Shown: positions 16,466 to 20,714 of the stretch, one piece after another
Position numbering within the stretch: the first letter of the stretch is position 1
Layout of the letters: the number at the start of each line of letters is the position of its first letter
IMG/VR virus record: IMGVR_UViG_3300043119_000970
Location: 1 to 44,351 of that record
Direction: 5' to 3' (one strand)
Source: a virus
DNA: 44,351 bases
Made by a program: the position numbers and the translations under genes
The notes under the pieces: model-generated
What the model was told of the DNA's origin: nothing
What the model saw: only the letters and a program-made list of their open reading frames with translations
The model's database searches: none

Positions 16466-16503
16466 AACTTGCTATACCTCTCGTTTAGAGCGTTAATGTA
16501 CAT
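16466..16503 (+). promoter_or_regulatory. Recurring CTTGCTAT...ATGTA element, copy 1
   Basis: AACTTGCTATAC, then 18 bases, then AATGTACATG, about 40 bases before the amidoligase gene. Four similar elements lie at 18129, 19061, 20677 and 37324. Copies 1 and 4 share CTATAC and TAGAGC and have a spacer 3 bases longer than the others. Confidence 0.5.
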
Positions 16504-16543
16504 GACGAAAGAAACACACCTAAACGAGAAAGGGGAAAGCACC

Positions 16544-17470
16544 ATGGCAGAAAAGGATTTCTTGAAGAGCAACTTTGGAATCGAGATCGAATTCACAGGA
16601 ATTACCAGAAGAAAAGCAGCCAAAATTGTGGCAGAGCATCTAGGCGGCAGCATCGAAGAACTTCACGATTACTACAGAACCTTTAGAATCACAGCCCCTG
16701 ATGGTCGAAAGTGGAAAGTGATGTATGACGGAAGCATTAACACTCAGAAGAGATCAGGTGGTCAGAAGGTTTCAGCCTCAAAAGAATACAGCGTCGAACT
16801 GGTCAGCCCAATCCTAACCTACGGAAAAGACATGGAGAGCCTTCAGGAGATGGTGAGAAAACTTAGAAATGCCGGGGGATTTTCTCAAGCGCAGAACTCG
16901 GCTGGAATTCATATCCATTTGAACGGCGCTGACCACACACCAAGGTCCATCAGAAATTTCATGAACATTATCTACTCAAGAAACGATCTTTTATACGATG
17001 CCCTTCAAATAGAGAGAAGAAGAATGCACTACTGCAAAAAGATGGACCAAAGCCTTGTTGAAAGGATGAACAAGAAAAAGCCAACCACCATGAAGCAGAT
17101 TGAAGACATCTGGTACCAAGACTACAGCGAGAGAAGGGACAGGCATTACCACGACAGCCGATACCATTTTTTAAACCTTCACAGCCTTTTCAACGGATGC
17201 GGAACGGTTGAACTTAGAGGATTTAATAATCCGAACCTCCACGCTGGAAAGATCAGGAGCTATGTGGTTCTGGCCCTGGCCATGAACCATCAGGCCATAA
17301 CCCAAAAGAGTGCCAGCAGCAAGAAACCACAGATGGAAAACCCAAAGTTCTCCATGAGAACCTGGCTTAATCGAATTGGGCTAATCGGGGATGAGTTCAA
17401 GAACTGCCGCGAACACTTATGTAAAAGCTTATCAGGATCGGCAGCCTGGAGATTTCGCACAGCCGCATAG
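16544..17470 (+). CDS. Amidoligase (glutamine synthetase-like/COOH-NH2 ligase fold)
   Basis: The 308-residue protein matches the phage amidoligase family, predicted ATP-dependent ligases that form amide bonds. Visible motifs: FGIEIEF (Glu14, Glu16), YDGSI, VELVSPIL, GIHIHLNG (His123, His125) and TVELRGFNN (Glu223, Arg225). All lie in the order expected for an active enzyme. The C-terminal ~40 residues (266-304) are strongly similar to the end of the protein encoded at 19126. The start ATG 16544 follows AAAGGGGAAAG. Amidoligases and gamma-glutamylcyclotransferase-like genes often occur together in mobile elements, as here with 17608. The substrate is unknown. Confidence 0.85.
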   Translation: MAEKDFLKSNFGIEIEFTGITRRKAAKIVAEHLGGSIEELHDYYRTFRITAPDGRKWKVMYDGSINTQKRSGGQKVSASKEYSVELVSPILTYGKDMESLQEMVRKLRNAGGFSQAQNSAGIHIHLNGADHTPRSIRNFMNIIYSRNDLLYDALQIERRRMHYCKKMDQSLVERMNKKKPTTMKQIEDIWYQDYSERRDRHYHDSRYHFLNLHSLFNGCGTVELRGFNNPNLHAGKIRSYVVLALAMNHQAITQKSASSKKPQMENPKFSMRTWLNRIGLIGDEFKNCREHLCKSLSGSAAWRFRTAA

Positions 17471-17477
17471 ATAAAAA

Positions 17478-17590
17478 ATGGCGGCGCCTTCAAACCCACC
17501 GAGCGGGCAACCGCTCTTAAGGTGGTAGAAGGGTCCCCCACTTTAAACAAAAGCCGACACAGGCGAAACGTGGGGGGATAAACCGCCCTT
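17478..17590 (+). ncRNA. Strongly structured intergenic RNA
   Basis: The stretch folds as a closed three-way junction. GGCGG (17480-17484) pairs with CCGCC (17583-17587). Arm A stacks three helices: CCTTC/GAAGG (17487/17528), CCACC/GGTGG (17496/17521) and GAGCGG/CCGCTC (17501/17511) capped by a GCAA tetraloop. Arm B is TCCCCCAC/GTGGGGGA (17534/17570) with GCC/GGC (17553/17562) inside. It lacks a T run, so it is not a simple terminator. I do not recognise a known RNA class. It could be a trans-acting RNA, a riboswitch or an mRNA stabiliser between the two genes. Confidence 0.6.
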
Positions 17591-17607
17591 TAAGAAAGGA
17601 TGAAGTG

Positions 17608-18099
17608 ATGATGAAAGTGGAAAAGAGACTCAATGTGGCCTATGGGTCCAATCTCAATCTTGGTCAAATGGCTATGAGGTGCAAGACGGCTAAGGTCTAT
17701 GGCATAGGTGTTTTAAAGGGCTATAGACTTCTTTTCAAAGGCCAAATGGCAAATGCCTACTGCACCATTGAGAAAAAGCGTGGTGGGAAAGTTCCGGTGA
17801 TTGTTTGGGAACTTAAGCCGGAAGATGAAAAAGCACTGGATTTTTACGAAGGCTACCCGAGATTTTATGAAAAGGAAGACGTGAAAGTTACATTGGAGGA
17901 TGGAACGGTCATTACAGCCATGGTGTATATCATGACCGATAAAATACTCGATAGGATCCATCTCAACCTTCCAAGCAAAAGTTATCTAGAGACTGTAAGG
18001 GAAGGTTACAGAGCTGCCGGTTTTGATGAATCCTTCATTGATGATGCACTGGCCATCAGTGAAAAGGCTATTAAGAAGTACCCGACAAGTTTTCTGTAG
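17608..18099 (+). CDS. Gamma-glutamylcyclotransferase-like (AIG2-type) protein
   Basis: The protein has 163 residues. It has the fold signature VAYGSNLNLGQMAMRC near the N-terminus, GYRLLFKG, PVIVWELKPEDEKALDFYEGYPRFYEKE (with the likely catalytic Glu in FYEGYP), and MVYIM. The family splits gamma-glutamyl amide bonds by cyclisation. It is therefore chemically the counterpart of the amidoligase upstream: one forms an amide bond, the other may trim it. The pair is reported in mobile elements. The start ATG 17608 lies after AAAGGATG; GTG 17605 and ATG 17611 are possible. The natural substrate is unknown. Confidence 0.85.
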   Translation: MMKVEKRLNVAYGSNLNLGQMAMRCKTAKVYGIGVLKGYRLLFKGQMANAYCTIEKKRGGKVPVIVWELKPEDEKALDFYEGYPRFYEKEDVKVTLEDGTVITAMVYIMTDKILDRIHLNLPSKSYLETVREGYRAAGFDESFIDDALAISEKAIKKYPTSFL

Positions 18100-18128: not shown

Positions 18129-18169
18129 AATGACTTGCTATTACTTTGGTTTTAAGGCATGTATAGTAG
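18129..18169 (+). promoter_or_regulatory. Recurring CTTGCTAT...ATGTATA element, copy 2
   Basis: AATGACTTGCTATT (18129-18142) is followed by GCATGTATAGTAG. The left part is identical to copy 5 before the recombinases. It lies 26 bases before the next small gene, so TATAGT (18162-18167) could serve as a -10 box. Confidence 0.5.
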
Positions 18170-18970: not shown

Positions 18971-19060
18971 TTGCACCTCCTAGGTTGTTACTTCTATGTT
19001 ATATGAAAGAAATTACCAATTCAATGGTAGGGCTTCCATATTCAAAAATAAAAAATATTT

Positions 19061-19097
19061 AGCTTGCTATTTAGGGCAGTGTGAGTGATGTATAGAA
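19061..19097 (+). promoter_or_regulatory. Recurring CTTGCTAT...ATGTATA element, copy 3
   Basis: AGCTTGCTATTT is followed by GTGATGTATAGAAG with the same spacing as copies 2 and 5. It lies 30 bases before the amidoligase-paralog gene and beside the divergent AbrB-like gene. Confidence 0.5.
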
Positions 19098-19125
19098 GTA
19101 CCAACCAAGTAAAGGAGGATTAAAA

Positions 19126-19947
19126 ATGGAAAGAAAAGAAATGATCAAACAACTGGGTGAGCATTTTGGCGTGAAACCTAAGTACTTAAGTGTTCCAAGC
19201 TTCGCTTATGAAATCAGAACTGAAACGGAAGTCTATACCATTGACAGACATGGTGGTATTACGCGAGCGGGTGGAGAGTCCATCACTATGGAAGAAATCC
19301 TGGGCCAGCAAGTTCAGCCAGAACCAATGGCTGATCAAGAGGAAATTCATGAAGCCGAGATGAATGCGGTGGAAATTCTAGAAGCAGCTCAAAACCCAAA
19401 AAATTCTAGTTCGCTAGAAGATCTTAGTGGAGTTGAAGTTAAACTTAACTTTGATGAGCACACAGCTGATAGCCTGAAGAACATCATCAACATGCTTTAC
19501 AGTAAGCAGCGACTCATCATGATGGCTTTTGAAACAAAGGTAACCTTAATGGATGAGGGGTTTGCTGAAGATCTAAGTGATTTTGAGATTAAGGACTTTG
19601 AAGGGCTTAAAGAAATCCTAGAGAAACTCGGAACAAACAGGTGCCCAGGATTTCAGATTGATTTTGATGAGAAGACGTTCACCTTCAAACTTCTCAGCTC
19701 AAACTTGAATCCAGAAAGGATCAAGGCATTTCAAGATCTATGCGTTCTCATAGCAAGCTATGCCAGAACCTTAAAACGAGCATCCTACAAACAGGCACAG
19801 GATGACAATCCAAAGTATGCCCTTAGAACCTGGCTGATCCGCATCGGAATGAATGGTCCTGAGTACAAGGAAACCAGAAAGACACTTCTTAAGCACCTTG
19901 AGGGTAGCGGTGCTTTTAGAAAGGTGGATGAAAATGATGAAACCTAA
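19126..19947 (+). CDS. Amidoligase paralog lacking the catalytic core
   Basis: Proteins of this type are often labelled virulence-related in mobile elements. The 273-residue sequence aligns by eye with the amidoligase at 16544. The last blocks (here 228-266, there 266-304) share about 20 of 39 residues, including RTWL-RIG--G-E-K--R. The middle block (KLNFDEHTADSLKNIINMLYS against HLNGADHTPRSIRNFMNIIYS) also matches. The catalytic positions are changed: HIH becomes EVK (Glu104, Lys106), and the EIEF and ELR motifs are absent. It is probably a non-enzymatic partner or substrate-binding paralog. The start ATG 19126 follows AAAGGAGG. Confidence 0.75.
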   Translation: MERKEMIKQLGEHFGVKPKYLSVPSFAYEIRTETEVYTIDRHGGITRAGGESITMEEILGQQVQPEPMADQEEIHEAEMNAVEILEAAQNPKNSSSLEDLSGVEVKLNFDEHTADSLKNIINMLYSKQRLIMMAFETKVTLMDEGFAEDLSDFEIKDFEGLKEILEKLGTNRCPGFQIDFDEKTFTFKLLSSNLNPERIKAFQDLCVLIASYARTLKRASYKQAQDDNPKYALRTWLIRIGMNGPEYKETRKTLLKHLEGSGAFRKVDENDET

Positions 19948-20645: not shown

Positions 20646-20676
20646 TTGATATAAATCTTCAAGTATACACAAATAC

Positions 20677-20714
20677 TACTGGCTATACTCCCCGACTAGA
20701 GCTATTATGTACAC
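20677..20714 (+). promoter_or_regulatory. Recurring element, copy 4
   Basis: ACTGGCTATACTC...TAGAGC...TTATGTACAC closely matches copy 1 in sequence and spacing. It lies 26 bases upstream of the 59-residue gene at 20740. Confidence 0.5.

Follow-up and report, generated by a model that had tools for sequence, protein, structure and literature searches.

What lies between the amidoligase gene and the gamma-glutamyl cyclotransferase (GGCT) gene of a Clostridia phage, and does it bear on the expression of either? The window analysed here, the whole 44,351-nucleotide stretch (positions 1 to 44,351) of IMG/VR record IMGVR_UViG_3300043119_000970, is a contig from a Clostridia-type phage. Its gene order is DUF1492, HNH endonuclease, ParB-like/DNA methylase, amidoligase, the RNA described below, GGCT and a second phrog_2443 gene, followed by the small and large terminase subunits and the portal. 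The RNA is in sense orientation within this phage operon, with the terminase genes 3.4 kb downstream, and it is flanked by two cistrons:

16544-17470, plus strand: upstream cistron, Amidoligase_2 (PF12224, phrog_2443), stop codon UAG at 17468-17470
17605-18099, plus strand: downstream cistron, GGCT (PF06094, phrog_2520)

Among annotated records the closest to the window is a human fecal phage, IMGVR 517045, assigned to Ca. Heliusvirales, and the hosts of related named phages are Ruminococcus, Coprococcus, Agathobacter, Dorea, Lachnospiraceae, Acutalibacteraceae, Monoglobales and Terrisporobacter. The second phrog_2443 protein (19126-19947) has no Pfam match and has its C-terminal part in common with the amidoligase; the 3' end of its gene carries no copy of the RNA, a model search of the window returning a single copy. 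A promoter-like intergenic motif, roughly CTTGCTAT...TTTAGAGyG.TATATGTAcatgAC, is repeated upstream of several gene groups (approximately 16466-16510, 18131-18165, 19058-19100 and 20670-20710 in the window; also in the viral loci L163 and L165). Since this motif stands ahead of gene groups, amidoligase, RNA and GGCT appear to form a single two-gene unit. The pair of proteins has been noted among the accessory genes of Clostridium clostridioforme prophages (PMC11318856) and in prophage TPDSL_ph1 (PMC11253131), and discussed there as a possible cell-wall or receptor modification; the available portions of these two papers make no mention of an RNA.

A first-pass annotation had proposed a highly structured RNA at 17478-17590, folded as a closed three-way junction and belonging to no recognised class. 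Its first arm consisted of the CCUUC/GAAGG, CCACC/GGUGG and GAGCGG/CCGCUC helices with a GCAA loop, and the fold included the following elements:

17480-17484 with 17583-17587, plus strand: P1, closing stem GGCGG/CCGCC, mutually exclusive with P0 and P6 (see below)
17487-17491 with 17528-17532, plus strand: P2, CCUUC/GAAGG, mutually exclusive with P6
17534-17541 with 17570-17577, plus strand: second arm, UCCCCCAC/GUGGGGGG, plus GCC/GGC

Every described helix is present in the window sequence, and folding the 113 nt on their own gives the described structure as the one of minimum free energy, at -50.3 kcal/mol. The complementarity exceeds chance, as had been claimed: shuffled sequences averaged -36.2 (sd 3.5, z -4.0), with 0 of 200 as low. 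The negative claims also held. There is no terminator-like site within 17478-17590, where a GC-rich hairpin followed by a U run was not found, and an intrinsic terminator is thus ruled out, as is a coding remnant, owing to indels between relatives (alignment A1, below). All 4227 families of Rfam 15 gave no match at the gathering score for the window and 12 family loci, so that membership of any Rfam class, riboswitches and ribozymes included, is ruled out; below threshold, the best hits, at E 0.15 in the window and E 0.42 in L169, came from unrelated families. Among the known riboswitch classes and self-cleaving ribozymes of Rfam there was likewise no match, with three unrelated weak matches at E values up to 5.

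The three-way junction is therefore the fold of the isolated sequence, but it is sensitive to context. In 17455-17600 (146 bases, adding 23 nt upstream and 10 nt downstream), the minimum energy fold (-54.1) replaces P1 with P0, a hairpin around the amidoligase stop codon, and pairs the Shine-Dalgarno site (SD) of the second cistron with CCUUU, while in the longer stretch 17400-17660 P1 is present again. Within 17455-17600 the helix set of the junction (-50.3) and that conserved in the family (-51.0 kcal/mol) are nearly equal. Given these near-equal energies and the dependence of the minimum fold on context, thermodynamics alone cannot choose between the folds.

Comparison with close relatives did distinguish them. 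Relatives were gathered in four ways: a 20-mer gave 7 loci, the amidoligase 45 loci, a gapped pattern 41 stretches and GGCT 27 loci; 7 short intergenic rows lacking the RNA and 4 duplicates were removed, and alignment A1 comprises 34 close relatives. The proportion of paired cells in A1 was 67.6% for P1, 80.6% for P2, 92.4% for P5, 93.6% for P4, 87.5% for the second arm and 97.1% for GCC/GGC. Alignment A4 retains 30 of these 34 rows with more upstream sequence (the type-2 rows L056, L064, L084 and L116 being excluded). At least 4 of 5 pairs are kept in 26/30 relatives for P0 and in 18/30 for P1, which is broken in the other 12; P6 has at least 4 pairs in 26/30 and P2 in 24/30, P5 is retained in 29/30 and P4 in all 30, with 75.9% of cells paired for P1 and 87.0% for P2. 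CCGCC is lost in L072 and L079 and GGCGG in L054, L067 and L069, all five of which retain P6; the CCCUU partner is missing in L003, L088 and L093, all from the window's own group. The breakage of P1 rules out the P1/P2 three-way junction as the conserved fold of the family. That structure is instead P0, P5 enclosing P4, and P6, and the element, whose structured nature stands, extends beyond 17478-17590 to the amidoligase stop codon upstream and the SD downstream. P2, and the P1/P2 junction as a whole, are each a possible alternative state in the window's lineage. The parts of the conserved element in the window are:

17462-17466 with 17481-17485, plus strand: P0, GCCGC/GCGGC, hairpin with the amidoligase stop codon in its loop
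17496-17500 with 17521-17525, plus strand: P5, CCACC/GGUGG, enclosing P4 and a UUAA bulge
17501-17506 with 17511-17516, plus strand: P4 hairpin, GAGCGG/CCGCUC with a GCAA loop
17517-17533, plus strand: conserved core UUAAGGUGGUAGAAGGG, its columns invariant in A1 and, partly by selection, in the wider-family alignment
17528-17533 with 17586-17591, plus strand: P6, GAAGGG/CCCUUU, its 3' strand 3 nt from the SD AAAGGA
17534-17585, plus strand: lineage-specific insert in the P6 loop (the junction's second arm and the GCC/GGC hairpin)
17595-17600, plus strand: SD of the second cistron, AAAGGA, able to pair with CCUUU at 17587-17591

Within the insert, the motif AAGCCnACAC(A/G)GG (17551-17563) is invariant in nearly all 34 rows of A1, partly by selection, and it is missing from most of the wider family.

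The RNA of the window is 75% identical to that of L067, the amidoligase and GGCT proteins being each 46-49% identical, and RNA similarity correlates with that of amidoligase (0.79) and of GGCT (0.75), two values that favour neither neighbour. Such strong sequence conservation relative to the neighbouring proteins, together with the very stable fold, could also befit an independent small RNA acting in trans, processed from the operon or transcribed within it. This is quite unlikely, as the element is neither closely preceded by a promoter-like site nor ended by a terminator, and is locked to the SD of the next gene.

To see how far the element extends among viruses, viral contigs were searched with the 17-mer TTAAGGTGGTAGAAGGG (17517-17533), which yielded at least 119 stretches, of which the 98 new ones were examined; the identity of the core in these loci is due to selection, on which their genomic setting and remaining structure do not depend. 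Among the matches listed, an amidoligase gene ends just upstream in 96 of the 98 further viral loci, the other 2 being cut there, and downstream there is a GGCT gene in 92, no GGCT in 4 and a contig end in 2. None of these 98 listed matches places the 17-mer outside the amidoligase junction, with some 7 chance matches expected by rough estimate. The RNA family is widespread among viral loci, a relative being present also in TPDSL_ph1, a prophage of Terrisporobacter petrolearius DSL, and its layout in the wider family is P0 at or just past the amidoligase stop, P5 (CCACCUU/AAGGUGG) around P4 (for example GACCGC-UUCG-GCGGUC), the UUAA bulge, UA, P6 (GAAGGG/CCCUUC), GGAAAGGA and the start codon. 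The core UUAAG..GGUAGAAGG is near-invariant, and its strictly conserved unpaired bases suggest more than a simple coupler. Variants found by the model, without use of the 17-mer, have AAGGCAG as the 3' strand of P5 (L161, L164, L263 and L265), and the second copy in L162 has P6 altered on both strands to AGCGGU/ACCGCU.

A gene of the DUF4314/DUF5049 type takes the place of GGCT in 4 of the 98 listed loci (L165, L174, L176 and L190; both Pfam names rest on the L174 protein alone), with the RNA and SD layout unchanged, and this replacement weakens the idea of a GGCT-specific leader. L168 has a junction of the same type at which the contig ends, and L246 is cut off downstream too. Three loci carry two copies of the RNA, namely L161 (959-1050 and 2092-2178), L162 (1501-1599 and 2270-2370) and L181 (4517-4610 and 4094-4184, minus strand). 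The second copies follow other genes and precede GGCT genes; in L181 a small gene lies between the two copies, the first of which has no SD. The extra GGCT copies of L161 and L162 and the GGCT of L181 each have their own RNA copy ahead.

These settings bear on the idea that the element acts in the nascent transcript on RNA polymerase, as an antitermination element like put of HK022 that sits a few kb upstream of the terminase and structural genes. Its sense orientation 3.4 kb upstream of the terminase genes, its conserved hairpins and the invariant bases joining them would suit such a role. However, the amidoligase junction in 96 of the 98 listed loci, with no other setting among these, the duplication along with GGCT, the fixed spacing to the start codon and the presence of more promoter-like motifs downstream all argue against antitermination, which we regard as improbable.

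The proposal of the first-pass annotation that covariation should be sought in homologs was borne out in the wider family but not in the 34 close relatives, where total covariation in A1 is not clearly above shuffles. Alignment A2 contains 43 of 59 representatives; sequences with a long P6 loop, members of the window's group and a number of near-duplicates were excluded. Two-sided changes occur at 11 of its 25 pairs, compared with 5.7 in shuffles (0/500 as high), and 79.5% of cells are paired, compared with 37-55% when partners are slid. As one slid version also gave 10 two-sided pairs, the support is carried by the percentage paired and by the shuffles. A model trained on A2, from which the window's group is absent, detects the window at 37.8 bits (E 2.6e-11), a detection that is not fully independent because the A2 sequences have the 17-mer in common. 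Alignment A3 was made from 89 of 102 matches, the 13 antisense ones being dropped, and was fitted to the model and so leans towards it; here 80.6% of cells are paired (71.8 in shuffles, 0/500) and 161 cells show two-sided changes (47.8 in shuffles, 0/500). By helix, P4 and P0 covary strongly in A3 and P5 somewhat, P4 having the strongest covariation of the family, with two-sided changes at 5 of its 6 pairs. P6 has none among the 89 sequences of A3 because its 5' strand is invariant, partly through selection on the 17-mer. The support for P6 is its conservation and its geometry.

P6 was found in 81 of the 89 family members and not in the other 8, several more having it weak or placed elsewhere. 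In 50 of these 81 members, 17-19 nt separate the 3' end of P6 from the start codon, and in 6, including the window (counting from GTG at 17605), 13 nt do so, the rest having other values. The loop ranges from about 3 to 96 nt (<10 nt in 58 members, 10-19 nt in 4 and 40-99 nt in 19), and despite this range the spacing to the start is mostly constant, so that placement of P6 beside the SD and the start codon is conserved. The variability of the loop identifies the second arm of the window as an insertion into the P6 loop that only the window's lineage and a few others possess and that most of the wider family lacks. L226, L232 and L247 have different inserts of 62-65 nt, unlike that of the window, which indicates that the P6 loop accepts extra domains.

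The SD can form 4 pairs with the 3' strand of P6 in 58/58 cases, compared with 39.5 expected after shuffling, a moderate excess for a pairing that is nearly automatic because it follows from P6. Two mutually exclusive folds are possible on paper in the window, one of which hides the SD. The same geometry can be set against the view that the element serves mRNA processing or stability, with a ribonuclease or protein at the core cutting or shielding the bicistronic transcript to give unequal amounts of the two proteins. An intercistronic position, three consecutive stable hairpins and invariant single-stranded bases would be expected of such an element, but processing alone would not need a mostly constant distance from P6 to the start, and we consider this explanation unlikely.

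The class to which Clostridium sp. cel8 belongs, represented by 391 genomes, served to assess the distribution of the element in cellular genomes. Model R1 gave 7 matches at E 0.01 and model R2 gave 25 at E 0.001; 9 of the 391 genomes (G001, G055, G111, G214, G218, G223, G243, G290 and G355) were judged to be real carriers. The weak R2 matches (about 20-25 bits), including a resemblance to 16S rRNA, were treated as chance because the loci inspected, which covered part of the weak ones (13 loci, strong matches included), were rRNA, terminator or unrelated sequence. Seven of 34 genome-contig matches were judged real (L088, L089, L092, L093, L109, L114 and L116, all confirmed with R1), the remainder being set aside as chance on sight. 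A phrog_2520 match occurs in 60 of the 391 genomes; among 30 loci retrieved, an amidoligase is present in 29 and the RNA in 8, and the 22 without the RNA rule out an obligatory partner of every amidoligase-GGCT pair. Some GGCT matches, among them L295, L303 and L309, contain one or two in-frame stop codons and may be broken genes or reflect where the matches end.

An amidoligase tree was built from 86 representatives, of which 66 have the RNA; L158, whose core has a one-base difference, was scored as a carrier manually. Presence of the RNA requires a minimum of 4 gains or losses on this tree, and well supported branches force 3 of them. The RNA has thus been lost or moved several times. Combined with gene replacement directly behind the RNA and with an RNA sequence more alike between lineages than the flanking genes, this mobility could point to a DNA-level element, either a packaging site or a boundary at which cassettes are exchanged by recombination. 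The compensatory changes in P4 and P0 and the single orientation relative to the operon nevertheless indicate an RNA, and two or more copies can occur within one locus, making a DNA-level role highly improbable.

Taken together, four features characterise the family: the P0-P5/P4-P6 layout, a near-invariant core, a location behind the amidoligase gene and a spacing from P6 to the start that is mostly fixed. From structure, position, conservation and spacing we infer, with about even confidence, a cis-acting intercistronic element of a two-gene phage mRNA that sets translation of the second cistron. Translational control is possibly achieved by a switch between P6 and the SD. In the ON state, P6 would bind the SD-like GAAGGG to CCCUU(U/C) and leave the adjoining true SD free. 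In the OFF state, GAAGGG would be taken by another partner, so that CCCUU(U/C) could pair with the SD and shut initiation. Candidate partners of GAAGGG are CCUUC at 17487-17491 in the window, or some factor recognising the core, whether protein, ligand or ribosome. On reaching the end of the amidoligase gene, a ribosome would open P0 and cover the 5' strand of P5; we hypothesize that the fold could in this way respond to translation of the upstream cistron. Conservation of the unpaired bases is suggestive of a bound factor. We tentatively entertain, as a rather doubtful extension, an orphan phage sensor RNA in which the UUAAG..GGUAGAAGG junction would bind a specific ligand or protein, P6 would release or hide the SD, and the RNA would be more mobile than its neighbouring genes; its partner may be, for example, the ribosome or a product made by the amidoligase/GGCT pair.

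No description of such an RNA was found in the literature at the level of titles and abstract openings. Comparative genomics has reported candidate structured RNAs from the human microbiome and gut bacteria, some of them near phage domains (PMC8040213); amidoligase and cyclotransferase are absent from the accessible main text of that paper, and some overlap with its candidates is possible. The element is a phage RNA with compensatory changes that Rfam lacks. Its phages are those of gut and sediment Clostridia and extend over many Clostridia families. It accompanies the amidoligase-GGCT pair, whose role in phages is putative, and its defined core and common position offer a testable handle on how phages control that pair. 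Its covariance model could annotate many prophages.

In translational switches that sequester the SD, and in translational coupling elements, a strand resembling an anti-SD beside the SD pairs alternatively. The present element is like them in a possible alternative pairing of the SD and in having the stop codon of the upstream gene inside the structure, and differs in its 17-nt conserved core and four-helix layout, which have no described counterpart among the families searched. Like the putRNA of HK022, it is a phage RNA of consecutive hairpins and may act in cis, whereas it differs from putRNA in being intercistronic and bound to one gene junction and start codon (PMC9378689, in the portion available).
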